In this document: piece after piece, positions 4,989 to 39,092 of the stretch
Layout: each line of letters starts with the position of its first letter
Numbering within the stretch: position 1 is the first letter of the stretch
Program-made: the position numbers and the translations under genes
The notes under the pieces: generated by a model
The model's database searches: none
What the model saw: the letters and a program-made list of their open reading frames with translations, nothing else
Told to the model about the DNA's origin: nothing
NCBI GenBank assembly: GCA_011525805.1
Contig: WYBR01000028.1
Location: forward strand, 1-64,000
Source: Vicinamibacteraceae bacterium
GTDB lineage: Bacteria; Planctomycetota; Phycisphaerae; Phycisphaerales; UBA5793
Length of the DNA: 64,000 nucleotides
Reading direction: 5' to 3'

Positions 4989-5053
4989 TGGGATGTTCGG
5001 CGCGCTGCGTCCGCTCGCGCTCCCCTTCGCAGAGCCTTCGGGTCTCGGCTAGG

Positions 5054-5152
5054 AGACTGTTTCACAACGGTGGGACGGGCGTCTCGCCCGTCCAAACCGA
5101 ACGGGCCAGAGGCCCGTTCCACCACTTCGACGTCAGTTGTGAAACAGATTCT
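5054..5152. repeat. 99-bp MITE-like palindromic element, copy 1
   Basis: Begins AGACTGTTTCACAAC and ends GTTGTGAAACAGATTCT, giving ~14-bp terminal inverted repeats. Inside are two further palindromes, GGACGGGCGTCTCGCCCGTCC and ACGGGCCAGAGGCCCGT. A second copy at 42572-42670 has the same length and about 92% identity. No coding capacity and no clear target-site duplication. The element occupies the middle of the 263-bp gap before the spoVR gene; the rest of that gap shows nothing. Confidence 0.85.
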
Positions 5153-5251
5153 AAGCGAGGGCGGCCCTGCACGAAGCGCACCTTCATTCCCGCCTCCCGC
5201 CATCCGCCATTTTCCTCGAACCGCGGGGCGTTTCGTCCGATACCGTTAAGC

Positions 5252-13784: not shown

Positions 13785-15275
13785 ATGCTTCGCCGCGCCC
13801 TGTCGCTCCTTCTCGCAATCGCCCTTCTTGCCGTCGCCTCGTACGCGGCCCCGCCGAAGGCCGCGCCCGCCGGGGCCGAGCACTGGAAGGGCGCCATCGC
13901 CCTCCCCGGCGTCGAGCTCACCTTCACCGTTCACTTCAGCAAGGATGACGCCGCGCCCGGCGGCTGGGCCGCCACGCTCGACATTCCCATGCAGGGCGTG
14001 GCAGGTGCGATGATGAAGGACGTCGTCTACACCAACAAGGAACTCGCCTTCACCTTCGCCGTCCCCGGCACCCCCGTCTTCAAGGCTGAGATCGACGAAA
14101 GCGGCCGCACCGCCTCCGGCACCCTCACGCAGGCCGGCCAGACTTTCCCCCTCACCCTCACGAGGCAGACCGACGAAGAAGCCGCGGCCAACACGCTCAA
14201 TCGGCCGCAGAACCCGCAACCCCCCTTCCCCTACGAAGTGCGCGAGGTGAAGTTCCGCAACGAGATCGACGGCATTGACATCGCTGGCACGCTGACCATC
14301 CCCAACGGCGCCGGGCCGTTCCCGGCCGTCGTGATGATCACGGGCTCGGGGCCGCAGGACCGCGACGAGTCGCTCATGGGGCACAGGCCCTTCTGGGTCA
14401 TCGCCGACTACCTCTCGCGCAATGGCATCGCGGTGCTGCGCTGCGACGACCGCGGCGTGGGCGGCACCGGCGGAAACGTCATGCAGTCCACCAGCGAGAA
14501 CTTCGCCCTTGATGCGCTCGCCGGCGTGGCGCATCTCAGGACGATCGACCGCATCGACGGCGGCAAGATCGGCCTGATGGGCCACAGCGAGGGCGGCATC
14601 GTCGCGCCCCTCGCGGCGGTGCAGTCCAGGGATGTCGCGTTCATCGTGCTCCTCGCCGGCACGGGCCTCCCCGGCCACGAGATCCTCCGCCTCCAGACGC
14701 GCCTGCTCGTGGCCTCGGCCGGCGCCTTTACCGACGAGCAACTCGACGAGATGATGGCCAGACACACCGCGCTCACGCAAGCGATCATGAACGAATCCCC
14801 GCCGGCCGAGCAGTTGGAGGCGATGAAGGCCCTCATGCGGGCACAGTTGGGCGAGGCGTCAGAGTCGGCGATGGATGACAACGCGCTGGGCCAGGCCGCG
14901 ATGCAGCAACTGGCGCAGATGAGATCGCCGTGGTTCCGCTACTTCCTCACCTACGACCCCCGGCCGACGCTGCGGAAGGTGACGTGCCCGGTGCTGGCGC
15001 TCAACGGCTCGCTCGATCTCCAGGTGCCCGCGGATGAGAACCTCGAAGAAATCCGCAAGGCGCTGGCCGAGGCGGGCAATGCCGACGCGACGATCACCAA
15101 ACTCGACGGCCTCAACCACCTCTTCCAGCACGCGACCACCGGCTCGCCGGCGGAGTACATGACGATCGAAGAGACGTTCGCCCCCGAAGTGCTCGAACTG
15201 ATCACGAAGTGGATTCAGCAGCGCTTCGGCGCCGCGGCGACGGAGCCGGAGGCGGCGCCGGCGACAGCGCAGTAA
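13785..15275 (+). CDS. Secreted alpha/beta hydrolase
   Basis: 496 residues with an N-terminal signal peptide (LSLLLAIALLAVASYA). An N-terminal beta-rich domain (to about residue 150) precedes an alpha/beta-hydrolase domain of the dienelactone-hydrolase/S9-like group. The oxyanion segment is MITGSGPQDRDE, the nucleophile elbow is MGHSEGG, the acid is in NGSLDLQVP and the His in LDGLNHLFQH. An Arg/Asp-rich CDDRGVGGTGG loop follows strand 4. Substrate cannot be read from the sequence; esterase or peptidase activity in the periplasm is most likely. The ATG follows CTGGAGAATC. Confidence 0.85.
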   Translation: MLRRALSLLLAIALLAVASYAAPPKAAPAGAEHWKGAIALPGVELTFTVHFSKDDAAPGGWAATLDIPMQGVAGAMMKDVVYTNKELAFTFAVPGTPVFKAEIDESGRTASGTLTQAGQTFPLTLTRQTDEEAAANTLNRPQNPQPPFPYEVREVKFRNEIDGIDIAGTLTIPNGAGPFPAVVMITGSGPQDRDESLMGHRPFWVIADYLSRNGIAVLRCDDRGVGGTGGNVMQSTSENFALDALAGVAHLRTIDRIDGGKIGLMGHSEGGIVAPLAAVQSRDVAFIVLLAGTGLPGHEILRLQTRLLVASAGAFTDEQLDEMMARHTALTQAIMNESPPAEQLEAMKALMRAQLGEASESAMDDNALGQAAMQQLAQMRSPWFRYFLTYDPRPTLRKVTCPVLALNGSLDLQVPADENLEEIRKALAEAGNADATITKLDGLNHLFQHATTGSPAEYMTIEETFAPEVLELITKWIQQRFGAAATEPEAAPATAQ

Positions 15276-15282
15276 GCACTGA

Positions 15283-15510
15283 TCAGCGACCGGTATTGCG
15301 CCGCGATTCCCACCGCCGCCAGCCGACGGCCGCGAGGCACAACAGCGCCCCGAAGGCGCCGACGGCGAAGGCGACGGGGTGGCGGACGCCCAGCACCGCC
15401 GGCCGCGCCAGCCAGCCGCGGTCGAGCATGACAAACGATGCGCCCATGCACAGCAACCCGACGAAGAGCAGGAGCGAGACAACGAGCGACCGGGCGCGGC
15501 GGGCAGGCAT
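15283..15510 (-). CDS. Small two-helix membrane protein
   Basis: 75 residues with two predicted membrane helices (SLVVSLLLFVGLLCMGASFV and VAFAVGAFGALLCLAAVGW) between basic ends (MPARRAR at the start, WRRWESRRNTGR at the end). It is convergent with the hydrolase gene, 7 bases from its stop. The ribosome-binding site is weak. The clean helix pattern argues for a real gene, but the family is unknown. Confidence 0.5.
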   Translation of the reverse strand: MPARRARSLVVSLLLFVGLLCMGASFVMLDRGWLARPAVLGVRHPVAFAVGAFGALLCLAAVGWRRWESRRNTGR

Positions 15511-16008
15511 CGCCCTGACCTTACCCGCGCGTCGCGTCGTTTTCCCGCGCCGGCGCGCCGAGCCGACGCCCAACGCCGGGTGTTGCACGTCTACGTACAG
15601 GGCGCCGCTCGCCGGAATGAGCGTGTGGTCCTCCCGCGAACATCCGGCATCGGTCGGAGGATGTGCGTCCTGGCGTTCGCCTCATTGCCGGGCAGAATCG
15701 CCTGTTTGAACAGGCGGCGAGCCATCAAGGACTCACGGTGACGGGGCTCGCCGATGCGACGCTCGTCAAGGTGCAAGCCGTTGAAGTGGTCGCCATCGAC
15801 GAGGCCAGGCGACGGCTCCGCGTGAAGTGCGGCTTCAACGAACTTCGAGACGACCGCCGCCACCTCTTTCTCCCGCTCAAACGATCCGCCGCCTGCGTCT
15901 GGAGCGAAGGATCCGCCCCCTGGCGGACACGGCGGATTCAGAGGTGGCCGACTGGCCTACGCTTCCGTTGAAACCGGTCACCCGCCAACGTGAGAAGGAT
16001 GCACTCGC
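15511..16008. other. Gap of ~500 bp without an assignable gene
   Basis: Two overlapping open frames exist here: 15663-15971 on plus (103 residues) and 15591-15863 on minus (ending RTTRSFRRAAPCT). Both have G/C-biased third positions and neither has a good ribosome-binding site or recognisable similarity. The minus frame remains open further upstream through a Gly/Pro-rich stretch. It may be a decayed gene or an unknown small one. The leader of the transaldolase gene lies at the right end. Confidence 0.3.
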
Positions 16009-16653
16009 ATGGACATCTACATCGACACCGCCAACCTCAACGAGATCCGCGAAGCACACGCCCTCGGCGTGCTCGACGGCGTGACGACCAACCCCTCTCT
16101 CGTCGCCAAGGAGAAGGTGGACTTCCACACCCGCCTGCGCGAGATCTGCGAAGTGGTTCAGGGCCCCGTCTCGGCCGAGGTCGTGAGCACCGAGCATGAC
16201 GGCATGATCCGCGAGGCGGACAAACTCACGCAGATCGCCGACAACATCGTCATCAAACTGCCCAGCACCGTCGAGGGCCTCAAAGCCTGCAAGACCCTCA
16301 GCGACCAGGGCGTGAGGGTGAACATGACGCTGTGCTTCCAGGCGCTGCAGGCGCTGCTCGTGGCCAAGGCCGGGGCGTTTCTGGTGAGCCCCTTCATCGG
16401 ACGCGTCGATGACATCGCCGGCGACGGCGTGCACCTCATCGGCCAGATCCGCGCCATCTACGACAACTACGGATACGAGACGCAGATCCTCGCCGCGTCC
16501 ATCCGCCACAGCAAACACCTTGTCGACGTCGCCCTCGCCGGCGCCGATGTCGCCACCGTGCCCTTCAGCGTGATCAAACAGATGATGAGCCACCCGCTCA
16601 CCGACGTCGGCCTCGAGAAGTTCCTCAGCGACTGGAAGAAGGCGAACGGATAG
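16009..16653 (+). CDS. fsa: Transaldolase / fructose-6-phosphate aldolase family
   Basis: 214-residue TIM-barrel aldolase of the short (TalC/FSA) subfamily. The N-terminus [16 protein letters not shown] and [13 protein letters not shown] are signature segments, and the Schiff-base lysine is in [33 protein letters not shown] and [19 protein letters not shown] follow in the usual order. Members interconvert C7/C4 and C6/C3 sugar phosphates or cleave fructose 6-phosphate, and sequence alone does not separate transaldolase from aldolase activity. AGAAGGA upstream supports the ATG. Confidence 0.94.
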
Positions 16654-16756: not shown

Positions 16757-18001
16757 ATGCTGAATCACCTCCGATCGTTCACGGCCGCCGCGATTCTGAG
16801 CGCGACGACGTTGCTGATGTGTCCCGCGACCAGTCTGTGCCAGGACGAGCCGCCGGCCGCCGAAGCCGCGCTCATCGACGCCGCGGAAGCAGCGCGTCAG
16901 AGACTCATCGACGCGACGCCGACGGGTGGAACCGCGCCGCCTGAACTGCTTCGCGCTTTCGCCGATGCGTGGGAGGCGTACCTCGCCGAATTCCCCAAGG
17001 GCGATCGCGCCCCGCAGGCGCGCTCGACCATCCTCTCGTGCCTGATGCGCCTCGACGATCCGGCGCGCGTCGTGGAGACCGTGGACCGCTGGTTCGCGGG
17101 CGATGCGCTCACGCCCCCTGAGTTCGACCGGGCGCTGAAGATGCGTTTCGCGGCGGTGGAGCGGCTCCGCGGCCCCGAGGCGGCGCTGCGCGAGGCCGAC
17201 GCCGCCATCAGCGCCGCGCAGGAGAAGCACGTCCGCCTCCTGCTCGCCAAGTCGGCGATCTCGGGCCTGAGTGCTGCGCAGCGCCTCGCGATCATCGACG
17301 AGGCGATCCGCGCCTCAAGCGGCGTCGCCGCCCTCCGCGCCGAGTCGCTGGCGAGCAAAGCGCTCGTCCTCATGGAGCAGGGCGGCGAGGAGCGCGCGGC
17401 CGAAGCGCGGAAACTCCTCGATGAAGCGAGCGGCCTCGACCCGCGGGCGCCGAGCGTCACCCGCGCCCACATGCAGATGCGCAGCCGTGCCGAGGCCCTC
17501 GAGGGCCAGGGCGACATCGCCCCCGGCAAGGCCGCCCCCCTCTTCGCACTCAACAACATCCGCACCAACGAAGTCGTCAAACTCGAAGACCTGCGCGGCA
17601 AGGTGGTCCTGCTCGATTTCTGGGCGACGTGGTGCGGGCCATGCCTGAGCCTCATGGACTCGCTCCTCGCCGATCTGCACCGCGACTACGCGGACGACGG
17701 CCTGGTCATCGTCGGCGTCGGCACGAACTGGCGCGGCGAGACCGCTGCGAAGCAACTCGAATGGGCCGAGGCGAAGGATCAGCCCATCCTCCGCGGCTCG
17801 CAGCGCACCCGCGGCCAGTGCAACTGGCTCAAGGTCCACGACCCGACGAACGAAGTCGCGCAGACCTACGGCGTGCAGGGCATCCCCTTCTGCGTCCTCA
17901 TCGACAAGGAAGGCAGGATCGTCCTTGCCGGCAACGGCCACGCGCTCAAGGCGGACATTCTCAAGTACGTGCAGGAGCACTGCGGCAAGTCGGGGAACTG
18001 A
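16757..18001 (+). CDS. Secreted TlpA/ResA-like thioredoxin protein with a helical N-terminal region
   Basis: 414 residues; ATG with AAAGGAG six bases upstream. An N-terminal signal (AAAILSATTLLMCPATSLC) is followed by ~220 residues of helical, TPR-like sequence. The C-terminal ~150 residues form a thioredoxin domain: APLFALNNIRTNEVVKLEDL, the redox motif WATWCGPC and the cis-Pro loop GVQGIPFCVLID. It probably reduces or isomerises disulphides outside the cytoplasm, fitting the many Cys-containing secreted proteins nearby. The last ~33 codons plus six bases beyond the stop are repeated, slightly diverged, at 19501-19609. It is convergent with the kelch-like gene. Confidence 0.88.
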   Translation: MLNHLRSFTAAAILSATTLLMCPATSLCQDEPPAAEAALIDAAEAARQRLIDATPTGGTAPPELLRAFADAWEAYLAEFPKGDRAPQARSTILSCLMRLDDPARVVETVDRWFAGDALTPPEFDRALKMRFAAVERLRGPEAALREADAAISAAQEKHVRLLLAKSAISGLSAAQRLAIIDEAIRASSGVAALRAESLASKALVLMEQGGEERAAEARKLLDEASGLDPRAPSVTRAHMQMRSRAEALEGQGDIAPGKAAPLFALNNIRTNEVVKLEDLRGKVVLLDFWATWCGPCLSLMDSLLADLHRDYADDGLVIVGVGTNWRGETAAKQLEWAEAKDQPILRGSQRTRGQCNWLKVHDPTNEVAQTYGVQGIPFCVLIDKEGRIVLAGNGHALKADILKYVQEHCGKSGN

Positions 18002-18050
18002 GGCCGGAGACGTTTGGCGACGAGCACCGGCCAACGGCACGCTGTTCCGC

Positions 18051-19292
18051 CTATTCGACGCGCGCGACGTTGCTCGTGGCGCAAGTGCTCAGGTCCACGA
18101 GCTGCATCGAACCGCCGCACGCTTCGGCGCGTGCTGAGGCGACGATCGTCGCCTGACCTCCGGCACCGGTCATGGCCTCGGCAACCAGCCGCAAGCCGCC
18201 TCGAAGGCCAAGCAGTGTCCCAGCGCACGCATAACCGTGCGGCACAGCGGTCTCGCCCAACGAGCGGCCAAAAACAAGGGCCACGCGGCCGCGAGGCGTA
18301 GCGCCGTCCCACGCGATCCGGATCGGTCCTCCGCCTGGGCAGGTTGCATCAATCGACAATCGGATCGGCGGCGGGCAGGAGTATTCCCACGCATCCAGCC
18401 GCAGGCCGCGCCCATCGTATCCGCCGTCGAGCACCATCCGATGCCGACGAGTGTCGTAGACCATTGCCGCGCGCGCACATCGGCCGGCGCCGGTGACCGG
18501 TTCCTGCATCCAGTCCACGCCATCCCAGATCCACGTTTCATCAAGCATGGGATTGCCCCCACGGCTGCCGCCGTAGAGCAGTGACACGCCTCGGCGCGTG
18601 TCGAACGCCATGACGTGATTCGAATGGGACGGCGCCTCAGGGGAGACTCGCCTCCATTCCACCGTATCCCATTCCCACGTCTCGCCGACGCTGCACATGA
18701 CGAGAATGCGGCGCCGGGAGTCATAGGCGAGATTCGAGCCGCCCAGCGCGAACGGCGCCGGATCGGCGAGCAGCAACCAGTGTTCTCCATCCCACTCCCA
18801 CAGTTTCATATAGCCGAGCCCACCCTGATGAAGCACTGATCGTCGGCGATCGCTGTCGTAGACCATGCTCTGGTCCGGACAGGGAGGCGGGCCGGATTTG
18901 AAAACCCTCGTCCACGTCTGCCCGTCCCACTCCCACGTGTCGCCAAAGAGCGACGACTCCCCTTCACCGCCGAAGAGCACGGTAACGCCCCGCGACTCAT
19001 CGAAGGCCATGCCGTGGCCGCTGCGCGGTTCGGGGCCGTTCATCGTCGCCAGCGACCACTCCCGTCCGTCCCACTCCCAGGTGTCGCGCAGCTTGACGCC
19101 GACGGCATCTCCCCCGAACAGCACCGTCACGCCGCGCCGGCTGTCGTACGCCATGGCGTGATCGGCTCGCGGCGGTCCGCCGCCCACAGCGATCCACTCG
19201 CACTCCTGGGCCGCGATCGGGCTGGCGAGCAGGTGGAGCGCAAGAACGGCGATCAGCGTCAGGGTCAGGCCGACACTTCCCGGCGCGTTCAC
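18051..19292 (-). CDS. Secreted kelch-like propeller protein with SNVAR-type C-terminal domain
   Basis: 413 residues from a GTG with GGGGAGG six bases upstream. A signal peptide (LTLIAVLALHLLASPIAA) precedes six kelch-like repeats of the form MAYDSRRGVTVLFGG...DTWEWDG..W, about 45-50 residues each, predicting a six-bladed propeller. The last ~95 residues are a separate beta-rich domain: CPGGGPIRIAWDGATPRGR, YACAGTLLGLRGG, EACGGSMQLVDLSTCATSN, ending VARVE. The same domain closes the genes at 20012 and (internally) 21900, and a remnant is at 21380-21460. Four conserved Cys suggest disulphides. The function may be surface attachment or display; this is inference. Confidence 0.82.
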   Translation of the reverse strand: MNAPGSVGLTLTLIAVLALHLLASPIAAQECEWIAVGGGPPRADHAMAYDSRRGVTVLFGGDAVGVKLRDTWEWDGREWSLATMNGPEPRSGHGMAFDESRGVTVLFGGEGESSLFGDTWEWDGQTWTRVFKSGPPPCPDQSMVYDSDRRRSVLHQGGLGYMKLWEWDGEHWLLLADPAPFALGGSNLAYDSRRRILVMCSVGETWEWDTVEWRRVSPEAPSHSNHVMAFDTRRGVSLLYGGSRGGNPMLDETWIWDGVDWMQEPVTGAGRCARAAMVYDTRRHRMVLDGGYDGRGLRLDAWEYSCPPPIRLSIDATCPGGGPIRIAWDGATPRGRVALVFGRSLGETAVPHGYACAGTLLGLRGGLRLVAEAMTGAGGQATIVASARAEACGGSMQLVDLSTCATSNVARVE

Positions 19293-19500
19293 AATGAGCC
19301 TCCCCTCTTCTTGCCGGTCCACCGGCGCGGTGGTCAGAGGATCGTAACGCCTTCGTGTCCGTGCGCTCATGCGGAACCGGCCGCGCCCGGAACTTCGGGG
19401 TGGATTGCCTGCTGCTCTCCGGACACCCGCTGCAGATCCTGCGACTCTCTTTCACTTGGCCGTGAGAGGCGGCGCGCCATTCTGCATTCCTTATCCGTCC

Positions 19501-19609
19501 CGACAAGGACGGCAAGATCGTCTACGCCGGCAACGGCCACGCGCTCAAGGCGGACATTCTCAAGTACGTGCAGGAGCACTGCAACAAGTCGGGGAACTGA
19601 GGCCGCGGC
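19501..19609 (+). pseudogene. Duplicated 3' end of the thioredoxin-like gene
   Basis: About 105 bases match 17905-18009 with seven differences (~93%), from DKDGKIVYAGNGHALKADIL through the stop codon and the following GAGGCCG. The matching frame is open only from about 19490 and lacks a start and the thioredoxin motif. Coding changes relative to the intact gene are conservative or residue-plausible (E to D, R to K, L to Y, G to N), which suggests the source was a working paralogue rather than a decaying copy. The rest of 19293-20011 holds a promoter and no other gene. Confidence 0.85.
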
Positions 19610-20011: not shown

Positions 20012-21013
20012 ATGAGGCGCCGTCTTTCCGCCGTCCTCCTGTCGGTTCTGCCCGCGCTGTCGGGCGTGGCGCTCGCCCAGGACGATGTGCTTACCGCGGC
20101 CGGATCGGGAGGCGAACGCCGTCTCGAAGCCGGCCTCGTCGCTCCCGCCGCCATCTGCTGGTACAACGGCGACATCGACTATCGCAACGGCTTTACCAGC
20201 GAGCGCAACACAGCGGTGACTGCGACATGGACCTACGACGACGTCGTGTGGGACGGCGGCGTAGTCACGGGCGCGCGCGCCCACTTCGTCATCAACCCCG
20301 GCACGGTCATCGTCGGCGGCGACCTCATCATCTACCAGGGGATGAGCGAAGGGAATTTCGGCCGGCTGATCCGCGAGGTCAGTGACATCACCGACTTCAA
20401 GTTCACCCGCACCGGGATTCGGGCCTTCAACCGCGACGAGTACCGGCTGGAACTGACCCTCGGACATTCCGCATTCCGGCTCGATCCCGGCGAGTACCAC
20501 GTCGGCATTCGCTGCATCGGTTCGGGTCAGGGGCAGGCCTTCGTCGTCGTGACCAGCGGCGAAAACGCCATCGGCACGCCGCCGGGCAACAACGGCCGGA
20601 CATTCCTCTGCTCTTCCTTCCAGGGCCCCTGCTTCCCCACGGACTGGCAGAACCTCGTCGGACCGGGAACGTGGGACGTGTCCTACGGCCTCGACTGCCG
20701 GCCGAGCGACTACACCCTGGCGCTCAGCGGCCAGTGCCCGGGCCTGGTGCGCGTCGAGTGGAGCGGCGCTGAGCCGGACCGGCGGCAGGGCATCCTCTTC
20801 GCGTTCGACGTCGGCAACTACACCCTCCCCACCGGACCGTGCCAAGGCACGGAACTGGGCCTTGGAACGAGAGGCTTGATGCTCATCGCCGTCATCAGCA
20901 CTGGCGCCGGCAGCGGGGCGGTGAGCGGCGCCACAGGATCCCAGTGCCAGGGCTACGCCCAGTTGATCACGATTTCATCCTGCGCCACCAGCAACGTCGC
21001 GCGGGTGCCGTGA
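20012..21013 (+). CDS. Secreted protein with SNVAR-type C-terminal domain
   Basis: 333 residues; AAGGAGAAT upstream of the ATG. A signal peptide (LSAVLLSVLPALSGVALA) is followed by ~215 residues of beta-rich sequence beginning with an ICWYNGDIDYRNGFTSERN segment, a pattern seen in planctomycete secreted proteins of unknown function. Residues ~240-333 are the shared C-terminal domain: GQCPGLVRVEWSGAEPDRR, GPCQGTELGLGTRG, SQCQGYAQLITISSCATSN, ending VARVP. Downstream, the minus-strand tail of a SecA-like gene copy starts about 100 bases away, tail to tail, mirroring the arrangement at 23204/23355. Confidence 0.8.
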   Translation: MRRRLSAVLLSVLPALSGVALAQDDVLTAAGSGGERRLEAGLVAPAAICWYNGDIDYRNGFTSERNTAVTATWTYDDVVWDGGVVTGARAHFVINPGTVIVGGDLIIYQGMSEGNFGRLIREVSDITDFKFTRTGIRAFNRDEYRLELTLGHSAFRLDPGEYHVGIRCIGSGQGQAFVVVTSGENAIGTPPGNNGRTFLCSSFQGPCFPTDWQNLVGPGTWDVSYGLDCRPSDYTLALSGQCPGLVRVEWSGAEPDRRQGILFAFDVGNYTLPTGPCQGTELGLGTRGLMLIAVISTGAGSGAVSGATGSQCQGYAQLITISSCATSNVARVP

Positions 21014-21115: not shown

Positions 21116-21460
21116 TCAACGGTTCTCAAAATACAGTGCCCGGTCGAACCAGAGATCGGACTTGGCGATCATGCGCCGCGTCAGCGCCTGGCGGCGCGAG
21201 GCGGCGCGCTGGGCGTGCCACCAGAGCGGCACGTCCAGTCGCAGGCGGCGCGCGAGGAAGGAGTCGCGCAGGAGGCGCATCAGCGGGCGGATGCCGTTGA
21301 GTTTGAGCAGCGCATCGTCAAGGGACTTGAAGACCTCCGCTTGGCCGGGGTCGCCGTGGCGGCCCGCGCGTCGTCTCAAGCGCGACTCGCGCCGAGCGAC
21401 ATTGCTCGTCACGCAGGAGGTCTGGTCGAGTAGTCGCAGATGTGATCTGCACCCGCTCCG
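21116..21460 (-). pseudogene. Chimeric remnant: SNVAR-domain end fused to a duplicated SecA-like 3' end
   Basis: Bases 21119-21370 are ~95% identical to 23359-23610, the last ~83 codons of the SecA-like gene (GDPGQAEVFKSLDDALLKLN to ALYFENR), with only Q-to-H and R-to-D type changes. Upstream in the same frame, instead of SecA sequence, comes RLLDQTSCVTSNVAR, which matches the closing motif of the shared C-terminal domain (CATSNVAR). So the end of one gene family is joined to the tail of another. No start codon or upstream domain remains. Confidence 0.8.
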
Positions 21461-21475
21461 CGGATAAGTGTCGAC

Positions 21476-21899
21476 CTCCGTACATCCGCGCTGAAGGTGG
21501 TATGAATCGCGGGGACGGGTCAGGTTTGAATCGACGCGCGGCCGGGCGCAGATCCGCCAGGGAGCAGGCCATCTTCATTGCGCCCTTGGGATCTCAATCG
21601 CGCTCGATCTGCAGAGTTGTACATCAGTCCAAGACCTCATTCACGACGCGTTTGGGTCCGTAAGCGCCTGTGCGGATGCAAGTTCAGATCGACTGGCGGT
21701 TGGAGGCTGCTCCCCGCATCGCGCGATTGCAGGCAACTGTGCGTAACTCTTTACGTACCAAACAGATAGATCAATTACATGAAAATCTACACAGAATTGC
21801 CGTGCAGTCTCTTGACAGGCATGCTGCCGAGCAGTCACAATCCCTTCGGTCTCGGGTGAGAGCAGGTCTCGTGTATCGCCGGTGGCGAGGGAGGCATTC
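21476..21899. other. AT-richer intergenic stretch upstream of the 21900 gene
   Basis: No gene is seen. From about 21590 to 21840 the composition is visibly lower in G+C than the surroundings (for example TTTACGTACC, GATAGATCAATTACATGAAA). TTGACA at 21812-21817 with TCACAA 17 bases later is a weak promoter candidate. The composition break suggests DNA of different origin or an unusually long regulatory region. Confidence 0.4.
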
Positions 21900-23204
21900 A
21901 TGCAATTCTCTACGCGTAGCGTGCAGATGCTGGCTGCGATGCTCGGTTTTGGCTCGGCGGTGTACGGCCAGAACTGGAGTGAGAACTTCGAGTCCTACGC
22001 CGACGGCCAGGTTCTTTACAACGTCAATGGCTGGAGCGGATGGGACAACGTGCAGCAGGTCGCCGGCTCCTGCACTACGCAGCAGGCGCACGGCGGAAAC
22101 AAGTCCATCCTCATCGAGCCGAACGATGACGCGATCCGCACGTTCGATGCGGGCTACAACGCCGGCCTCGGGGCGATGCGTACGTGGATGCTTCTCCCTT
22201 CGAGCCAGCACACGGCCGACACCTACTACATCGTGCAGAACGAATACGCCCACGGTGGGCCATACCAGTGGTGCATCGAACTCCAGTTCGACATCAGCAC
22301 CCGCACGGTTCTCGACGACTTCCGCGACGAGTCCGGCGTCGTCAACATCATCTACGACCAGTGGGTGGAACTGCGATTCGACATCGACATAGAAAACGAC
22401 TTCATCATCTGCTACTACAACAACCAGGAGGTGTCCCGCGGACAGTTGTTCATCCGAGGCGGCGACGCGCAGATCAAGAACATCGACCTCTACTCGACCG
22501 GCTCGACCAACTATTTTGATGACCTGGCAATCACGGGTCTGCACACTTACGAACTGATCCCTTGGCCCTTCCTGGAGATCGAGGGATCCTGTCCCGGACA
22601 GATGACCGTTCGCGTCAGCCACGCCACGCCCGGTGGTTCTGTGGCGTTCATCTATGGCTTCGGCGAGGGAAGCATCCTTGTTCCGCCCGGCCAGCCCTGT
22701 GCGGGTACAAGGCTCGGCCTTCGCAGCCCCGTGCTTGCCGGCATCGCCCGCGCCGATCAGGACGGTGTGGCCGAGTTGCGAGCGAGTGTACCCCTTCAGG
22801 CGTGCGGACGTGTGCATGTGCAGGGGCTTGATGTCACTGGCTGCAAAGTGTCGAACGTCGAGCTGGTGTGCGAAGATCAAGGACGATGCAAACGGTGTGA
22901 GTACACCATCGAGTGTCGCCTGGTCGATGATCAGGGAGATTGCTCGGGACCGGTTCGAAGATTGGTGCGCGATCTCGATCCGCTTGATCGCATCGTCTAT
23001 TGGAGCAAGTGCAAGGAGCTGCGGGACTGCAGCCAGGGCCCCTTCTCTGCATCGCTGTTCATTGCTTACAGAGTGGACGGTGGCGATCTGCGGGAATGCG
23101 TCATGCAAGTCAAACTGAATCCGCTTAACGGCTGCGTACTCCCAACGCCAACGCCGTTCTCTGCGCCGTTCAATCTGCCGCCTCGTGCATGCGGGGGGTG
23201 GTGA
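21900..23204 (+). CDS. Secreted protein with internal SNVAR-like domain and Cys-rich tail
   Basis: 434 residues; GAGGGAGG seven bases before the ATG at 21900 decides the start over 21882. A signal peptide (LAAMLGFGSAVYGQ) leads into a ~200-residue lectin/LamG-like beta region (NFESYADGQVLYNVNGW at its start, RFDIDIENDFIICYYN later). The shared domain follows: GSCPGQMTVRVSHATPGG, QPCAGTRLGLRSP, LQACGRVHVQGLDVTGCKVS, NVEL. Unlike its relatives it continues for another ~110 Cys-rich residues (CEDQGRCKRCEYTIEC and on). It is convergent with the SecA-like gene. Its base composition is slightly less GC-rich than the neighbours. Confidence 0.78.
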   Translation: MQFSTRSVQMLAAMLGFGSAVYGQNWSENFESYADGQVLYNVNGWSGWDNVQQVAGSCTTQQAHGGNKSILIEPNDDAIRTFDAGYNAGLGAMRTWMLLPSSQHTADTYYIVQNEYAHGGPYQWCIELQFDISTRTVLDDFRDESGVVNIIYDQWVELRFDIDIENDFIICYYNNQEVSRGQLFIRGGDAQIKNIDLYSTGSTNYFDDLAITGLHTYELIPWPFLEIEGSCPGQMTVRVSHATPGGSVAFIYGFGEGSILVPPGQPCAGTRLGLRSPVLAGIARADQDGVAELRASVPLQACGRVHVQGLDVTGCKVSNVELVCEDQGRCKRCEYTIECRLVDDQGDCSGPVRRLVRDLDPLDRIVYWSKCKELRDCSQGPFSASLFIAYRVDGGDLRECVMQVKLNPLNGCVLPTPTPFSAPFNLPPRACGGW

Positions 23205-23354: not shown

Positions 23355-25424
23355 TTATCTATTCTCGAAATACAGCGCCCGGTCGAACCAGAGGTCGGAC
23401 TTGGCGATCATGCGCCGCGTCAGCGCCTGGCGGCGCGAGGCGGCGCGCTGGGCGTGCCACCAGAGCGGCACGTCCAGTCGCAGGCGGCGCGCGAGGAACG
23501 AACGGCGCAGCAGGCGCATCAGCGGCCGGATGCCGTTGAGTTTGAGCAGCGCATCGTCAAGGGACTTGAAGACCTCCGCCTGGCCGGGGTCGCCCTGGCG
23601 CCCGGCGCGGCCGAAGAGTTGCCGATCGATGCGGCGCGAGTCGTGCCGCTCGGTCGCGATCACCACCAGGCCGCCGAGGTCCGCCACCCCAGGGCCGAGG
23701 AGAATGTCCGTGCCGCGGCCGGCCATGTTGGTGGCGACGGTGACGGCGCCGAGTTTGCCCGCAGCCGCGACGATCACTGCCTCTTCCTCGTGGCGGACCG
23801 CGTTGAGCACGCGGTGCGGGATGGCGCGCTGCTCGAGGAGGCGCGACATCGCCTCGCTCGCCTCGACGCTGCGCGTGCCGATGAGCACGGGCCGCCCCCT
23901 CCGGTTCAGTTCCACGACGCGGTTCGCCACCGCCTCAAACTTGGCGTCGCGGTCGAGGAACATGCGGTCGGGCCGTTGCCGGCGGATCATCGGCTTGTGC
24001 GTCGGAATGCGCACGACGGGCAGGCGGTAGATGCTCCACATCTCCTTGCGGACTTCCCACGCCGTGCCGGTCATGCCGCTGAGTCGGCGAAAGAGTTGGA
24101 AAAACCGCTGGTAACTGATGCGGGCCATGGTTTCGCGGGGCGCGGTGACCTTGAGCCCCTCCTTGGCCTGGACCGCCTGGTGCAGGCCGAGTTGCCACTG
24201 CCGCCCTTCGAGGACGCGGCCGGTCTGCGGATCCACGATGTGCACGTCGCCGTCGCGGACGATGTAGTGATCCTCGATGTGGTAGAGTTCTCGGGCGACG
24301 AGCGCCTGGGTAACGAGTTCGGCCCGGCGGCGAGGGCCAGACCAGAACGCCGGCAGCGCGTCGGCGACCTCCGCGAGGCGCTCGCGCCCCGAGTCGGTGA
24401 GATCGACGCGGTGCTGCTGGACGTCGACGGCGTAATGCTCGCCGCGGCGGAGTTTCGCGGCCAGTTCGGCGGCGGTGTAGTAGTACTGCGCCGACTTGTC
24501 CTCGCCCCCCTCGGAGCCGATGATCGCCGGCGTCGTCGCCTGGTCGATGAGAACGCTGTCCGCCTCGTCGATGATGGCGGAGTAAAGCCCGCGCTGCACG
24601 ATGCGGCCTGTCCACAACTCGCGCGGACCCCCCATCGCCGTGTCCGTCACCTCGTCGAGCAGCAGCGCCGAGACGCGCGGCTGAAGGGGCGCGTGCAGTT
24701 TGTCGCGCAGGTAGTCGAAGATCAGTTGCTGGTCGGTGATGTAGGTGATGTCGCGCGAGTAGGCTTCGAGGCGCTCGGGAGGCGGGCTCTGGTCCTGCAC
24801 GACGCCGACGCTCAGTCCGAGGCGCTTGTAGATCGGGCCGTTGAGTTCGGCGTCGCGCCGGGCGAGGTAGTCGTTGACGGTGACGACGTGCGTGCCGTAG
24901 CCCATCCATCCCTGGACCGCGGCGGTGAGGCAGGCGGTGACGGTCTTGCCTTCGCCCGTGGCCATTTCGGCCAGGCAGCCGTCCTCCATGACCCACGCGC
25001 CCATGACCTGCTCGACGTAGAGGCGCAGGCCGACGGTGCGGCGGACGGCCTCGCGCACGACGGCGAAAGCGTGGGTGCGGGCGTCGTGGTCGCGCCGGCC
25101 GCGCCGCGCCGCTTCGCGGGCGGCCTCGATCTGCTCGTCGAAGGCCGTTTCGGACAGCCGCAGGAACGAATCGCTCAGCCGGACGACGCCTTCGCCCGCG
25201 GCGCGGAGGCGACGGCGCGACCAGGTCGCGCGCCGCGCGGCCCCGATGAGCGTCTCGTTGTAGCGGTCGAGTTCCTTGAGTTCGCGCGGCCGGGGCGGGC
25301 GATAGGAGAACGGCCGCCAGAGGCGCTGCGTGCTCCGCTCGGAGCCCGGCGCCGTCGCGGGCGCCACCCCGGCCGGCCCGTCGCCATCGCTTCCTCCGGG
25401 TTGGACGCGAGCGCGCACCGCCAT
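23355..25424 (-). CDS. Shortened SecA-like ATPase
   Basis: 689 residues. The SecA motor is intact: Walker A ATGEGKT (155-161), DEADSVLID (286-294), SGMTGTA (449-455), ATNMAGRGTDI (564-574) and LFGRAGRQGDPG (603-614). The preprotein-binding region between the ATPase halves is present in outline. Only ~75 residues follow the last motif, so most of the helical scaffold/wing region and the C-terminal zinc finger of a housekeeping SecA (usually 830-1000 residues) are missing. It is therefore a paralogue, not the general SecA. Its ATG overlaps the stop of the M50 gene (TGATG), implying translational coupling and a shared job. The 3' end is duplicated at 21119-21370. Confidence 0.9.
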   Translation of the reverse strand: MAVRARVQPGGSDGDGPAGVAPATAPGSERSTQRLWRPFSYRPPRPRELKELDRYNETLIGAARRATWSRRRLRAAGEGVVRLSDSFLRLSETAFDEQIEAAREAARRGRRDHDARTHAFAVVREAVRRTVGLRLYVEQVMGAWVMEDGCLAEMATGEGKTVTACLTAAVQGWMGYGTHVVTVNDYLARRDAELNGPIYKRLGLSVGVVQDQSPPPERLEAYSRDITYITDQQLIFDYLRDKLHAPLQPRVSALLLDEVTDTAMGGPRELWTGRIVQRGLYSAIIDEADSVLIDQATTPAIIGSEGGEDKSAQYYYTAAELAAKLRRGEHYAVDVQQHRVDLTDSGRERLAEVADALPAFWSGPRRRAELVTQALVARELYHIEDHYIVRDGDVHIVDPQTGRVLEGRQWQLGLHQAVQAKEGLKVTAPRETMARISYQRFFQLFRRLSGMTGTAWEVRKEMWSIYRLPVVRIPTHKPMIRRQRPDRMFLDRDAKFEAVANRVVELNRRGRPVLIGTRSVEASEAMSRLLEQRAIPHRVLNAVRHEEEAVIVAAAGKLGAVTVATNMAGRGTDILLGPGVADLGGLVVIATERHDSRRIDRQLFGRAGRQGDPGQAEVFKSLDDALLKLNGIRPLMRLLRRSFLARRLRLDVPLWWHAQRAASRRQALTRRMIAKSDLWFDRALYFENR

Positions 25425-27673
25425 CAGAGTTCAAACCTCTCGCTGAGCGCCTGGCGCGCGCGGCGGTACCACTGCCGGGCGAGCGGCTCGGATGGCCGGC
25501 TGAGGCGCACGCGCACGCGCGTTCCGGGCAGCGTGCCCAGCGCCGCCCCTTCGCCGCCCCCATCCAGGCCGCGCTCGCGCAGCGGCGTTCGCGGCCGGAG
25601 CGTGATGAGCCACTGCGGGGCGAGCGTCTGGCGACCCTGCGCATCCGTCGGGTCCAGGGCGATCCCGCCCCCGCGCACGTTCAGCGAGAGCGACTCGTGG
25701 GGCAGCGCCCGCGTCGCGGTGCGGCCGGACCGCTCTACGTCAAGGTCAAACTCGAGAACCTCGTCGAGGTGGTCGTACAGCCGGCCCTCGATGCGCACCG
25801 ACGCCGCGTCGGCCTCCGTCAGCCCGTTCGGAAACACCCACGCGAAGTCGCGGTCGTCCACAAAGGCGCGGATGACCATCTCATCGAGCGTGGCGAGGAG
25901 CATGAGCGGCTCGCCGCGCTGAATGAAGGCGCCGACCCGGCTGTGAAGTTGAGGAGCGACGATCAGGCCGCTGAAGGGCGCGCGAACGTCCATCTCCGCG
26001 ATGATCTCCTCGACCGTCTCGAGCCGATCGACCGCGTCGGCGTAGAGGAGGTCGGAGACCTGCCACTCCGAAACGCCCTCCGCGAGCGCGGCGTCGCGGC
26101 GCACGCGCTCAAGTTCGAGGCCGGCCGCGGCTCGGGCGAGTTGATGCTCCATCTCGGGATTGAAGAGCGTGAAGAGCGGCTCGCCCGCGGCGACCTCCTC
26201 CCCGTTGCTGACGTAGAGGCGCTCGAGGAAGCCGTCCTGCGCCGCCCGGCAGGTGAGGCGCTCGAGCGGATCGACCACGCCGATCGCGTGGACGCGCGCC
26301 GGCATCGGAACGAACCCGACGAAGCCCACCGCCAGCGCGATCAGCCCGAAGGACACGACGACGGCCCGCACGCGGACCAGTTGCAGACTCGGCTCGGTGA
26401 GGACGTAACTGAGCCCCTTGACGATCGGCGCCCCAAGCCACATCACCGCGCCGAACAGGCCCACAAGAAGGCCGAAGACGAAGTACTGCTGCGCCACGAA
26501 GAGCACGATGGTGAACATGACCAGAAGCCGGTACGGGAAGGCGAGCACCGCGTGCGTGACCATGATCGCCCCCTCCGTCCGGTCGTGCAGCGTCGGGCAC
26601 GGCTCGCCCTTGACGCCGAAGGCATACCGCCGCGTCATCCACTTGAGCAGTTCGTGCGAGCGCGTCGAGAGGTTGGGGATCTCAGCAAGGTCGGCGAGGA
26701 TGTAGTACCCGTCGTAGCGCAGCAGCGGGTTGATGTTGAACAGCAGCGTCGCCACCGACGCGACGAACATCACGTTGTACGCAATGGTGTGCGCCAGCCC
26801 GGCCTCGGTGCGGGCCCAGACGATCGCCGCGACGCAGGCGACCGCCATCTCGCACAGGACGCCGGCGCTGCTCACGAGAATGCGGCGCCACTTGCTCGGA
26901 AAGGCCCAACTCGCGGTCGCGTCGCAGTAGGGAATCGGCAGGACGATCATGAACATGATGCCGATCTCCGTCACGCGGCCGCCGCAGGCCTTGCACGCAA
27001 ACCCGTGCCCGAGTTCGTGGATCACCTTCAGCGCGAGGAACGAGAGCGAGAGCAGCGGGAGGTTCTCGACGGCGATGACGGAGTTGAGCGAGCCGGCCAG
27101 TTCCTCCCACCGCGGCAGCACGGCGCGGAGAGCCAGCGCGAAGAGCACGAGCAGCGCCAGCAGCCCCCAGCGGCTGAAGACGAGGCGCGCCGGCTCGGCG
27201 AACTTCGCGAGGAACCGCTCGGGGTTGAAAAGCGGCACGGTCCAGAAGAGGTAGTTGCCCGTAAACTCGCGGAAGCGCTGCTCGCGGATCTGCTCGATGC
27301 GCTCGCGCAGGCGCTGGATGTCCACGGGCAGGTCGTTGCGCAGCAGGCCGAACAACTGGAGTTGGGCGAGCAGGTCGATGCAGTCGCGCTGCGTCGGGGC
27401 CTCGTCGCCGAGTTGGGCGTTGCAGACGTCCCACGCCTCCTGCACCGTGCGCTGGCCGTCGAGCAGGCCCAGGAACCGGTACGCCGCCGCGTTGAATCGG
27501 TAAAACTTGCTGCTCGTCGGATCGCCGAGAATGAACCACGTCTGGCCGCGATACGTGTGCCGCCGCACCACGAGGTGGGCGCTGAGGCGCGGCTTGAACT
27601 CCGCGACGCGGTACCAGAGTTCACTGAATGTGCGGCTGATGTCGGCCATGTCGGGTTCACTCGTCGCGGGCAT
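25424..27673 (-). CDS. PqqD-like / M50 zinc protease / HlyD fusion membrane protein
   Basis: 749 residues. Residues ~40-115 resemble a PqqD-type winged helix, the recognition fold for peptide precursors (FYRFNAAAYRFLGLLDG, LLAQLQLFGLL). Residues ~165-450 form a multi-pass site-2-type protease with HELGH (219-223) and the third zinc ligand in NINPLLRYDGYY (Asp321). Residues ~455-650 are a membrane-fusion (HlyD/lipoyl-like) domain: CRAAQDGFLERLYVSNGEEV, VRAPFSGLIVAPQ, RVGAFIQRGEPL. The start may instead be the ATG at 27649. It is coupled by overlap to the SecA-like gene. It probably clips or exports a peptide or protein across the inner membrane; the substrate is unknown. Confidence 0.88.
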   Translation of the reverse strand: MPATSEPDMADISRTFSELWYRVAEFKPRLSAHLVVRRHTYRGQTWFILGDPTSSKFYRFNAAAYRFLGLLDGQRTVQEAWDVCNAQLGDEAPTQRDCIDLLAQLQLFGLLRNDLPVDIQRLRERIEQIREQRFREFTGNYLFWTVPLFNPERFLAKFAEPARLVFSRWGLLALLVLFALALRAVLPRWEELAGSLNSVIAVENLPLLSLSFLALKVIHELGHGFACKACGGRVTEIGIMFMIVLPIPYCDATASWAFPSKWRRILVSSAGVLCEMAVACVAAIVWARTEAGLAHTIAYNVMFVASVATLLFNINPLLRYDGYYILADLAEIPNLSTRSHELLKWMTRRYAFGVKGEPCPTLHDRTEGAIMVTHAVLAFPYRLLVMFTIVLFVAQQYFVFGLLVGLFGAVMWLGAPIVKGLSYVLTEPSLQLVRVRAVVVSFGLIALAVGFVGFVPMPARVHAIGVVDPLERLTCRAAQDGFLERLYVSNGEEVAAGEPLFTLFNPEMEHQLARAAAGLELERVRRDAALAEGVSEWQVSDLLYADAVDRLETVEEIIAEMDVRAPFSGLIVAPQLHSRVGAFIQRGEPLMLLATLDEMVIRAFVDDRDFAWVFPNGLTEADAASVRIEGRLYDHLDEVLEFDLDVERSGRTATRALPHESLSLNVRGGGIALDPTDAQGRQTLAPQWLITLRPRTPLRERGLDGGGEGAALGTLPGTRVRVRLSRPSEPLARQWYRRARQALSERFEL

Positions 27674-33531: not shown

Positions 33532-34992
33532 TCACAGCAGCGGGCTGAGCAATTGCGCGCCGTTGTCCAGGAAGCGCCGGGCGAGGCTGCGCTTGAGCCA
33601 CCAGTCGCGGTGGATGAAGGAGGCGCGATTCAGGTAGTCCACCTGCATGAAGCGCACGAGGCTCGAGAAGTCGTCGTCGTAGATGAACAGCGTAATCTCG
33701 AAGTTGAGCCAGAAGGAGCGCATGTCGAGGTTCGCCGAGCCGATGATCGCCAGTTTGCGGTCGGCAGTCATGGTCTTGGAGTGGAGCAGCCCGCCGCGGT
33801 AGTGGAAGATGCGAACGCCGGCGTCGAGGAGGTCGAGGTAGTGGGACCGCGAGGCGGCGGCGACGACGGGCGCATCGAGGCGCTCGGGGACGACGATCGT
33901 CACCTCCACCCCGCGCATCGCCGCCATGCACAGCGCCGCCTTGCTCGCCTCGTCGGGAACGAAGTAGGGCGTGGTGATGATGATCTCCTCACGCGCGGTG
34001 TAGATCGTCGAGAGGAAGGTCTGCTGCACGGCGTCGAGCGGCGCGCCAGGCCCCGAGGGAATCACGTGCAGCACGCTCCCGGAATCGGACCGAAGCACAT
34101 CCTCGGGGAAGAAGCGTCCCAGCGCCTCGAACCGCTCGCCGCTGTCGAGCATCCAGTCGCGCAGAAACACGACCTGAAGCGCGTGCGCCGCGGGGCCTTC
34201 GAGGCGCACGGAGGCGTCGATCCACGGCCCGATGCCCGTGCGGGGATTGAACTTGAACGTGTCGTCGGTGATGTTCTGGCTTCCGGCGTAGCCGATGCGG
34301 CCGTCGATCACGGCGAGTTTGCGATGGTTGCGCAGGTCGATCCGCGCCAGAAGCATGCGCAGCGGATTGACCGGCAGCGCGGCCACGACGCGCACCCCCG
34401 CCTCCCGAGCCGCCCGCGCTTCCCCGGACCGGAGAAACGCCTTGCTGCCCACGGCGTCGACGAGGACGCGGCACTCCACGCCCCGCGCCGCCGCCCGCCT
34501 CAGCGCCTCCGCCACTTCCACGCCGCGACCGCCCTTCATCCAGATGAAGTAGAGCAGGTGGCAGTGGTCCTGCGCACCATCGATGTCCGCGATGAGGCGG
34601 TCGAGCATCGATCCGCTCTCGGAGATCAGTTCGAGGTTGTTGCCGGTGAGCGGGGGAAGGCCTGAGACCGCCGTGCCCAACTTCGCCGCGTGCCGATAGA
34701 ACTCCTCCTGCGCCTGCCACTCCACGTGGTGATGCTGCCACATCGCCGCCGCCTCGGAGTCGATGCCTCGCGTCAGTTCGTTGTACTGGCGGACGCGACT
34801 CCGGCCAAGCCGGTTCTCCCCGATCAAGAGATAGACGACGAAGCCGACGAACGGCATGAAGAGGACAATCAGCAGCCACGCCAGCGAAACCGGCACCGAC
34901 GCCCGCCGCATGATGATCCGGATCGCCAGGCCGATGCGGATCATCCAGTCGGACGCCAGAACGATGACCGTGATCCAACTGAGCGATCCCAT
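33532..34992 (-). CDS. cls: Cardiolipin synthase (phospholipase D superfamily)
   Basis: 486 residues. Two N-terminal membrane helices (including VSLAWLLIVLFMPFVGFVVY) precede two HKD catalytic motifs, HRKLAVIDGRIGYAGSQN and LHSKTMTADRKLAIIGSAN. Each contributes His and Lys to the phosphatidyl-enzyme mechanism. Length and layout match bacterial ClsA-type enzymes, which join two phosphatidylglycerols to make cardiolipin at the inner membrane. The C-terminal SLARRFLDNGAQLLSPLL is also typical. Start at the ATG of MGSLSWITV. Confidence 0.93.
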   Translation of the reverse strand: MGSLSWITVIVLASDWMIRIGLAIRIIMRRASVPVSLAWLLIVLFMPFVGFVVYLLIGENRLGRSRVRQYNELTRGIDSEAAAMWQHHHVEWQAQEEFYRHAAKLGTAVSGLPPLTGNNLELISESGSMLDRLIADIDGAQDHCHLLYFIWMKGGRGVEVAEALRRAAARGVECRVLVDAVGSKAFLRSGEARAAREAGVRVVAALPVNPLRMLLARIDLRNHRKLAVIDGRIGYAGSQNITDDTFKFNPRTGIGPWIDASVRLEGPAAHALQVVFLRDWMLDSGERFEALGRFFPEDVLRSDSGSVLHVIPSGPGAPLDAVQQTFLSTIYTAREEIIITTPYFVPDEASKAALCMAAMRGVEVTIVVPERLDAPVVAAASRSHYLDLLDAGVRIFHYRGGLLHSKTMTADRKLAIIGSANLDMRSFWLNFEITLFIYDDDFSSLVRFMQVDYLNRASFIHRDWWLKRSLARRFLDNGAQLLSPLL

Positions 34993-35065
34993 CGCAGCAG
35001 TGTATCAGGGGCGTGGGGCGTGAGACTTGCCCCCCAAAGCCGTTTGCGGCTTCGCGCCCCCCCGC

Positions 35066-36286
35066 TCACTCGCCCAGCACCGCCGCGAGGTCGATCCGCG
35101 AGCCCGCCGGCGCGATCGGGTCGGCGAGGCGCCGATGCCGGCGCAGCAGAGTAACAAGTCGGCGCATGTCCGGCCAGAGAGGAGCGGTGAATTCGAGCGG
35201 CCGACCGTCCGACGGATGGCGCAGGCGCAGCGCCGTCGCGTGCAGCGCCTGGCGGTGCACGATCGGCCCGGCCTCCGCCTCGCCCGCGCCGCCGATTTCC
35301 GCCGCGCTCACCAGCCGCCCGCCGTAGGGTTCGTCTCCGACGATCGGCCAGCCGAGGTGCGCCAGATGAACGCGGATCTGGTGCGTGCGGCCGGTGTGCA
35401 ACTCAAGTTCGACCAGCGCGAAGTCCCGGAACTGCTCGCGCACGCGGTAGATGGTGCGCGACTCCTTGGCCGTTTCGTCGTAGCGCACGGCCATGAGTTC
35501 GCGGTGGACGGGATGCTTGCCGATCGGCAGATCGACAACGTCGGCGACGGGTTCGACGCGCCCGTGCACCACGGCAAGGTAGCGCTTGTCCGTCGTGCGG
35601 TTCTCGAACTGCCTCGCCAGGCGCCAGTGGGCGACGTCGGTCTTGGCGACCACGATCACGCCCGTCGTGCTGCGGTCGAGGCGGTGCACGACGCCCGGAC
35701 GAGCCTCTTCCGCCCCCACCGTCGAGAGCGCGCCCGCGGAGCGATGCTGAAAGTGCCAGACGAGCGCGTTGATCAGCGTGCCGCGCTTGTTGCCGCGCGC
35801 CGGGTGGACGATCAGGTCCGCCTGCTTGTTGACCACGATCAGGTCCTGATCCTCGTAGAGCACGTCGAGCGGAATCTCCTCTGCGGGAATGTCCTTCGTC
35901 GGCGGCGGCGGGACGATGACGGTCACAACGTCTCCGGCTCGGAGGATCGTCGCGGCCTTCGGCGCGCGGTCGTTCACCGTCACCGCCTGCTCGGCGATGA
36001 GGCGCTGCAACTGCGTGCGGCTCATGAAGGGGATGCGGTCCTGGAGGTACTTGTCCAGCCGCTTCTGGAGGTCGCGCGTCAGGCGGAACGTGACGCTCAG
36101 CGCCGCATCGGTGTTGTCTTCGTCGTTCTGTGCGGCGGCGGTACGGACGAGATCAGGATCGACCTTGCCGCCGGAGGCGAGGAGGGAGAACGCGGAGTCG
36201 GCTTCGGGGCGGGCCTCGGCTTCATCACCGCGAGGCGATGGGTCGCCCTGGCTTCGAGTCGGATCATCGCGGCCCGGGCCGGACAC
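35066..36286 (-). CDS. rluD: RluD-family 23S rRNA pseudouridine synthase
   Basis: 406 residues from a GTG, 5 bases after the stop of the preceding gene. A polar N-terminal ~65 residues is followed by an S4 RNA-binding domain (LDKYLQDRIPFMSRTQLQRL) and the RluA/RluD catalytic domain. The active-site motif is GVVHRLDRSTTGVIVVAK with its Asp nucleophile. HTGRTHQIRVHLAHLGWPIV and GDEPYGG follow. RluD makes pseudouridines in helix 69 of 23S rRNA. Last gene of the coaX / GTPase / TPR-like / rluD run. The exact start is uncertain because the extra N-terminal stretch is not conserved in the family. Confidence 0.92.
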   Translation of the reverse strand: MSGPGRDDPTRSQGDPSPRGDEAEARPEADSAFSLLASGGKVDPDLVRTAAAQNDEDNTDAALSVTFRLTRDLQKRLDKYLQDRIPFMSRTQLQRLIAEQAVTVNDRAPKAATILRAGDVVTVIVPPPPTKDIPAEEIPLDVLYEDQDLIVVNKQADLIVHPARGNKRGTLINALVWHFQHRSAGALSTVGAEEARPGVVHRLDRSTTGVIVVAKTDVAHWRLARQFENRTTDKRYLAVVHGRVEPVADVVDLPIGKHPVHRELMAVRYDETAKESRTIYRVREQFRDFALVELELHTGRTHQIRVHLAHLGWPIVGDEPYGGRLVSAAEIGGAGEAEAGPIVHRQALHATALRLRHPSDGRPLEFTAPLWPDMRRLVTLLRRHRRLADPIAPAGSRIDLAAVLGE

Positions 36287-36291
36287 GTGCG

Positions 36292-37209: not shown

Positions 37210-37299
37210 CGAGACCATTCCTTGAGCAGGGATTCGCCGGCCGCGGAACGCTTCTCCCGCGGAGCGGGGATGATAGGTTGCCCGCCTCGGCGGTGCGAA

Positions 37300-38286: not shown

Positions 38287-38303
38287 GCGGGCGGTCGATT
38301 GGC

Positions 38304-39092
38304 TCAGCGGCCGGCATCTTCGGCGGCGCCGGCGACGCGAAAGGCCGCGAGCATGCCGTGCAGCGTCAGGTCATCGACGATGTGCTCGACGAGTTCATCG
38401 CCGTCGAAGAGGAGATGAGCGTCTCCGCCCGTGGCGAGGATGGCGGGGTAGGCGAGGTAGGCTTCCGCGTAGCGCTCGGCGATGTGCCGCACCATGCCCC
38501 GGATGCCGTAGAACACGCCGTGCAGCATCGCCTGCCGCGTGTTCGGCCCGAAGGCGTCCGCCCCGGGGGCGGCGAAACTCAGCGCGGGCAGCGCATCGGT
38601 CCATTCGTGCAGCGCATCGAGTTGCATCTGCGCGCCCGGCGCGATGGCGCCGCCGTGAAACGTCCCTTCCCCGTCGACGAAGTCGATCGTTATCGCCGTG
38701 CCCGCGTCAATCACCACGCACGCCTGCCGGAATCGATCGAACGCCGCGGCCGCGTTGAGCAGCCGATCCTGGCCCGGCGTGGCGTCGGCGTCCAGGCACG
38801 TTCCCACGGGAATCGGCAGGTCGTCGCCGATGCGGAGCACCCGCGCCGACAGGTCGGCCCCGAGCCGGTCGATGAGCGGCGCGGAGACGCTCCGGTTCAC
38901 GGTGGAGACGACGACCAGCGGCTCGGAAGCCGCATCCGAACCCGCCAGGTAGGAGCGCATCGTCTCCACCATCGCCCCCATCTCCGCGTTGCGAAGGCGA
39001 TCGACCCGAAGCAGGCGGTCGGGCGAAGCGCAGGCGAGAGCGGTTCGAGAGTTGCCGACGCTGGCGAGCAGGACTGATAACTCGGGCACCAT
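38304..39092 (-). CDS. coaX: Type III pantothenate kinase
   Basis: 262 residues of the ASKHA fold. The [20 protein letters not shown] segment, the [13 protein letters not shown] motif and [20 protein letters not shown] are typical of CoaX, which phosphorylates pantothenate in the first step of CoA synthesis and needs a monovalent cation. The N-terminal phosphate motif, normally DxGNT, reads ASVGNSRT, so its Asp is absent; activity may be reduced or the gene may have drifted. First gene of a four-gene minus-strand run ending in rluD. The GTG/ATG at the start has a close GGAG. Confidence 0.85.

Follow-up and report, generated by a model that had tools for sequence, protein, structure and literature searches.

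Duplicated host-gene 3' ends flanking accessory genes in a variable slot between convergent thioredoxin-like and SecA-like genes

How a gene comes to lie between two copies of its neighbor's 3' end is the question raised by one locus in the window, the whole stretch of 64,000 nucleotides analyzed here. The initial annotation had placed the last ~105 bases of a thioredoxin-like gene (Trx), with its stop codon and six bases beyond, at 17905-18009 and again at 19501-19609, and had taken the repeat as a mark of integration into the gene end. The repeat is real: 105 nt at 17902-18006 recur at 19501-19605 on the same strand with 93% identity, 1599 nt apart, which puts the first copy ~3 nt from its original placement, and the repeat includes the Trx stop (17999-18001) and five, not six, further bases. 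A gapped alignment lengthens it to the limits given in Table 1 (89% identity, E about 1e-42), and a search of the whole 4.54-Mb genome returned just these two sites. The gene layout bears out that a single kelch-type gene lies between the copies, tail to tail with Trx.

Over their last 102 nt the functional copy and the far copy (Trx*) differ at nine positions, four of the changes falling in the functional copy and five in Trx*, where they are found partly at codon positions 1 and 2 of conserved sites. Because the copies differ, have no exact word longer than 57 nt in common and lie in a region free of N (16-26 kb), simple duplication in the assembly does not account for the repeat. The case that would have spoken for a deletion, a second full-length Trx paralog at 19501, is absent: each of four congeners (G001-G004) has one Trx match, beside the SecA-like gene, with none further between the two, and the idea of a paralog remnant is left without support.

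Table 1. Features of the Trx-SecA interval and its left neighbor (window coordinates).
Feature	Position	Strand	Evidence
Transaldolase-family gene, conserved left neighbor	16009..16653	+	Pfam TAL_FSA 6e-61; adjoins Trx in G001-G004 (in G002 the 3' part alone is on the contig)
Thioredoxin/TlpA-like gene (Trx), host gene 1	16757..18001	+	Pfam AhpC-TSA 6e-16; one match per congener, n=4
Functional copy, duplicated Trx 3' end	17886..18006	+	Sequence comparison
Kelch gene with C-terminal SNVAR domain	18051..19370	-	Pfam Kelch 3e-18; SNVAR HMM 18054-18377
Trx*, non-functional second Trx 3' end, ~117 bases	19489..19605	+	Left junction inferred about 19482-19489
g2, gene with C-terminal SNVAR domain	20012..21013	+	SNVAR HMM 20702-21010
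SecA*, non-functional second SecA-like 3' end, truncated at 21370	21116..21370	-	Sequence comparison
Short remnant of SNVAR gene 3' end, fused to SecA*	21371..21440	-	Sequence (..LRLLDQTSCVTSNVAR..)
Upstream region of g3, homologous to that of the G002 gene at this locus	21779..21875	+	Score 46 vs. maximum 32 in 300 shuffles
g3, mosaic gene with SNVAR domain, tail to tail with SecA	21882..23204	+	SNVAR HMM 22560-22865
SecA-like gene (SecA), host gene 2	23355..25424	-	Pfam SecA_DEAD 2e-89; Trx partner in 4/4 congeners
Functional copy, duplicated SecA 3' end	23362..23609	-	Sequence comparison

A second pair, unlisted in the initial annotation, lies ~3 kb from the first and within the same 5-kb slot: the 3' end of the SecA-like gene recurs at 21123-21370 (248 nt, 95%), with the SNVAR-domain gene g3 between the copies. 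The order across the slot is thus Trx> <kelch / Trx*> g2> <SecA* <SNVAR-remnant / g3> <SecA. The SecA copies differ at 16 of 249 positions (five changes in the functional copy, seven star-derived and four ambiguous), and the longest exact word common to them is 104 nt. Since g3 and the G002 gene have homologous upstream regions, the right half of the slot is of the G002 type; the C-terminal extensions of the two genes have no supported homology, their score being reached by 7 of 500 shuffles. The first 220 aa of g3 have their best match on C39 (59%) and the rest on C8 (44%), as recombination of SNVAR tails with N-terminal modules would produce. The SecA-like protein, of 689 aa, belongs to a second SecA-like gene, another match being found on contig C94; a PqqD/M50/HlyD-type gene adjoins it (window 23355-27673), and the two are perhaps a dedicated export pair.

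The convergent Trx and SecA-like genes are kept together in all four congeners, and what lies between them varies. In G003 the slot is empty, with 2 bp between the two stops; G001 and G004 each have one kelch gene and no repeat; the G002 slot holds another SNVAR-type gene and, before it and to the left of the upstream region in common with the window, a short remnant of a kelch 3' end. No copy of a Trx or SecA end was found in the three occupied congener intervals (G001, G002, G004). Among all loci compared, the best match of the window kelch is the Trx-linked kelch of G004 (49%, 384 bits vs. 280 for the next), and the G001 slot kelch, which may be a paralog, ranks fifth (38%, 256 bits). As G004, and probably G001, carry the kelch gene without the repeat, the kelch gene is probably older at the slot than the Trx duplication, which leaves the earlier proposal that integration into the Trx end brought the kelch gene without support from these genomes. 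The slot contents turn over quickly, given that the sisters G003 and G004 (95.8% nucleotide identity in Trx, 92.3% in SecA) differ in the presence of kelch. Judged from these comparisons, the Trx-SecA interval appears to be a variable slot between conserved convergent genes, open to gain and loss of SNVAR-domain genes; Trx* and SecA* would be 3' ends that insertion with long target duplication left behind.

The name SNVAR, a label only, was given in the initial annotation to a C-terminal motif; the domain comprises about 108 aa and ends in C-x-x-SNV-[AV] in most members. An HMM of the domain gave 150 hits at E <= 0.01 in the 4.5-Mb genome containing the window, several of them at contig ends, and 116 hits at E <= 1e-8 in G003. 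There was no Pfam match for any of 16 members, no NCBIfam match among five SNVAR proteins scanned, no solved relative in the PDB by sequence, nothing at E <= 0.001 in Foldseek, and no literature on the domain in narrow searches. Structure prediction from three window sequences suggests, with moderate confidence (mean pLDDT 70), an all-beta domain. Of the SNVAR genes, 62 of 94 are convergent with their downstream neighbor, and of other genes 150 of 459 (Fisher p 2.9e-9), a count of SNVAR genes with a called non-SNVAR downstream neighbor that uses script gene calls, not curated, and pairs that are not independent; the excess fits insertion slots between convergent genes.

The footprint is not confined to this slot. 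A scan of the 98 SNVAR-containing loci of the window genome (998 kb, 604 tails of non-SNVAR genes) gave five insertion-type cases, the Trx and SecA pairs and one on each of the contigs C25, C41 and C86, and in addition the locus L114. With duplicates of 117, 248, 35, 42 and 46 nt, respectively, the insert faces its host tail to tail in all five. On C25 (host 34509-38684) the insert is a kelch-SNVAR gene and on C41 (host 15142-16224) it consists of SNVAR-type genes; on C86 (host 14511-15689) it is an ankyrin gene, and a SNVAR gene lies on the other side. Locus L114 is a tandem array of co-directional genes, two SNVAR paralogs 65% alike with a copy of the host tail between them, and was classed as a tandem duplication; its host has no homolog in five genomes. 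Control stretches without SNVAR genes (20 stretches, 400 kb, 311 tails) gave no footprint, a difference from 5 of 604 which is not significant (Fisher p 0.17), and we claim no tie of the footprint to SNVAR genes. Left out of these counts were full paralogs (L047, L067, L121, L124), opposite-strand matches (L048, L083) and short, local or palindromic ones (L068, L080, L092) at the SNVAR loci, and in the controls a paralog (L207), a 22-nt match inside a gene (L209) and an opposite-strand match (L213). With another filter, 750 tails yielded these isolated cases again, SecA alone being missed because the filter truncated it, and a scan of 20 of the 71 SNVAR regions of G003 (131 tails) gave tandem paralogs only (L227, L228).

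Repeats of other kinds are also present. Two copies, 92% alike, of a 105-nt sequence lie at 5053-5157 and 42571-42675 of the window; its ends are inverted (GTTTCACAAC...GTTGTGAAAC or close to it), and it resembles a small mobile element, palindromic or of the REP type. A tandem array with a 45-46-nt period occupies 62502-62948. On C50 (94046-94168, locus L034) there is a 44-nt palindrome-like word (CTGCACGCTCGCC...) with 27-28 matches in 14 of the loci examined.

The cases on C25 and C41 indicate which of the two copies is native. The empty C25 site is seen in G002, where the host and mnmE are adjacent, and the far copy, spacer and mnmE start of C25 align with the host-spacer-mnmE stretch of G002; the functional end leads into the insert instead. 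At C41 the host and the next gene are adjacent in G001-G005, the sequence past the far copy resembles that after the G002 host, and the 42 nt show no change in the functional copy and four in the far copy. In both cases the native junction on the downstream side persists at the far copy, so this copy is native and the end in use is insert-borne. At Trx the same polarity is inferred, since the sequence downstream of Trx* has no match to the Trx downstream region of any congener. The C86 ankyrin insert occurs in G003 too, with a far copy of about 73 nt (locus L202), so the footprint can outlast speciation; in the G004 homolog the insert is present and no far copy was detectable. To this extent the initial annotation was right to see a mark of insertion in such repeats: the genome contains the footprint repeatedly, with native far junctions at C25 and C41 and the matching empty sites in relatives.

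The layout has a parallel in the literature. In PMC1643837, insertion with long target duplication is drawn from two Helicobacter pylori genomes as a way in which genes might move, restriction-modification genes being frequently involved; that source and PMC3874152 cite Nobusato et al., 2000 for the H. pylori event, which is also treated in PMC3154945, PMC2749054, PMC4978471 and PMC3031569. As there, a gene is present in one relative and absent from another and is flanked by a long, variable target duplication of the order of 100 bp; the empty site is seen at C25 and C41, while at Trx itself G003 is empty, yet G001 and G004 hold kelch without a repeat. According to these sources, the link to restriction-modification genes in H. 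pylori is frequent and not required, whereas the cargo here is SNVAR-domain or ankyrin genes; the window inserts encode kelch and SNVAR proteins only, none of them restriction-modification cargo. In contrast to H. pylori as described there, the target is the 3' end of a host gene, which the five core cases face tail to tail. Insertion with long target duplication is the closest known layout, with differing cargo, and the footprint looks like a mark left by one-sided recombination at gene ends, itself a known event type, rather than by a dedicated integrase; narrow searches found no literature on such a footprint at gene ends.

Any mechanism must account for a new gene with its promoter behind the host stop, a working host end, that is, the last tens to hundreds of bases, and a single non-homologous junction. 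With modest confidence we regard the footprint as an insertion with long target duplication, most likely made when short fragments recombined, by a single crossover or one-sidedly, within a variable convergent slot. A short fragment would carry the 3' end of a host gene with the adjacent gene, each event being presumably one-sided; having been re-circularized beforehand, or with its other end joined illegitimately, it would recombine by a single crossover within the host 3' end, so that the host gene would remain intact and the old end would be displaced beyond the new gene. For the window, the right half of the recipient would have resembled that of G002, with its SNVAR remnant, promoter region, gene and SecA; one event would have brought in g2 with SecA*, and another the Trx end, kelch and the kelch promoter. 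This reading is favored by two independent pairs in one 5-kb slot, by slot contents that vary among G001-G004, sisters included, by the same footprint at C25, C41 and C86, with native old ends at the first two, and by star-derived changes in Trx* and SecA* that match the expectation for released copies. It also has a precedent in Escherichia coli: in PMC3240628, 56 of 60 selected clones had a duplicated lacZ end, of 109-950 bp in 14 sequenced, ascribed to a single crossover of a re-circularized, partly degraded molecule. The likeness lies in a partial duplication of the end of a homologous gene with one new non-homologous junction; the assay, on the same account, was a laboratory conjugation, and true homology-facilitated illegitimate recombination there usually deletes rather than duplicates.

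Several observations count against this reading. No relative was found to combine all the proposed donor arrangements: Trx-kelch is present in G001 and G004, while Trx-g2, Trx-g2-SecA and C25 host-kelch were not found, and in G001, G003 and G004 the C25 host has no SNVAR gene within about 1.5 kb downstream. Two events in one slot require a specific order, and microhomology at the junctions is unreadable at the present divergence of the copies. The region upstream of kelch in the window genome (G000) has no similarity to its counterparts in G001 or G004, so that the right end of the presumed inserted fragment stays unconfirmed.

Other origins can be set against the same evidence. Replication-based templated insertion, in which repair of a break near the host end takes a distant gene as template and comes back a little upstream, would need no donor cell and would suit repeat lengths varying from 35 to 248 nt; the C41 insert has the look of a two-gene unit on C15 (83956-86096, pieces 78-88% identical) that was copied and then decayed, and both copies of the C25 end are of the G000/G002 type. 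Loci covering about 1/3 of the genome, however, hold no near-identical source for the Trx, SecA or C25 inserts, and we consider this origin rather unlikely. Tandem duplication of a host 3' end with the adjacent gene, followed by loss of the second gene copy, has an actual example in the array at L114 and would agree with a kelch gene that was probably in the slot beforehand, but we think it improbable: no second kelch copy is left after Trx*, and the far copies of C25 and C41 pass straight into native sequence, so the second gene would need to have been removed exactly at the stop.

Integrases that integrate into gene 3' ends restore the host end and leave a remnant on the far side. Integration into a gene end was the idea of the initial annotation, read here as site-specific integration of this kind (attL/attR) with the recombinase acting in trans, and the layout, with a functional end from the insert and the native end on the far side, matches it. 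The scanned inserts, however, contain no recombinase, only the kelch gene lies between the Trx copies, no 8-mer is common to three of the five junction sets, and in place of a shared core there is a new host gene each time and a repeat of 35-248 nt; the idea is very unlikely to hold. Transposon insertion finds no support, since the 15 pairs include no inverted one at 18007/19488 and the duplications (35-248 nt) are not short and fixed. An assembly chimera of strain haplotypes of the slot is suggested by a draft genome of 138 contigs, by the variability of the slot between congeners and by the long exact word shared by the SecA copies, yet the copies differ, the 16-26 kb region has no N, no shared word across the two junctions exceeds 6 nt, and the footprint is seen on other contigs and, at C86, in the genome of another species, all of which makes it scarcely credible.

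Recombination of short fragments remains the reading we favor. A lineage-specific process directed at 3' ends, placing single SNVAR genes tail to tail with a working host end, might have helped spread a family of ~150 copies per genome, an idea to which we assign a low probability. That the scars lie at gene ends may reflect survival, in a compact genome, of only those events that spare both neighbors. Accessory genes can in this manner enter a tightly packed genome with neither neighbor broken, the insert replacing the host end and the old end staying behind as a scar. A search for such scars across a genus would reveal in which direction genes were gained, which end is native and roughly how old an insertion is, and would allow the dispersal of an uncharacterized domain family to be traced.
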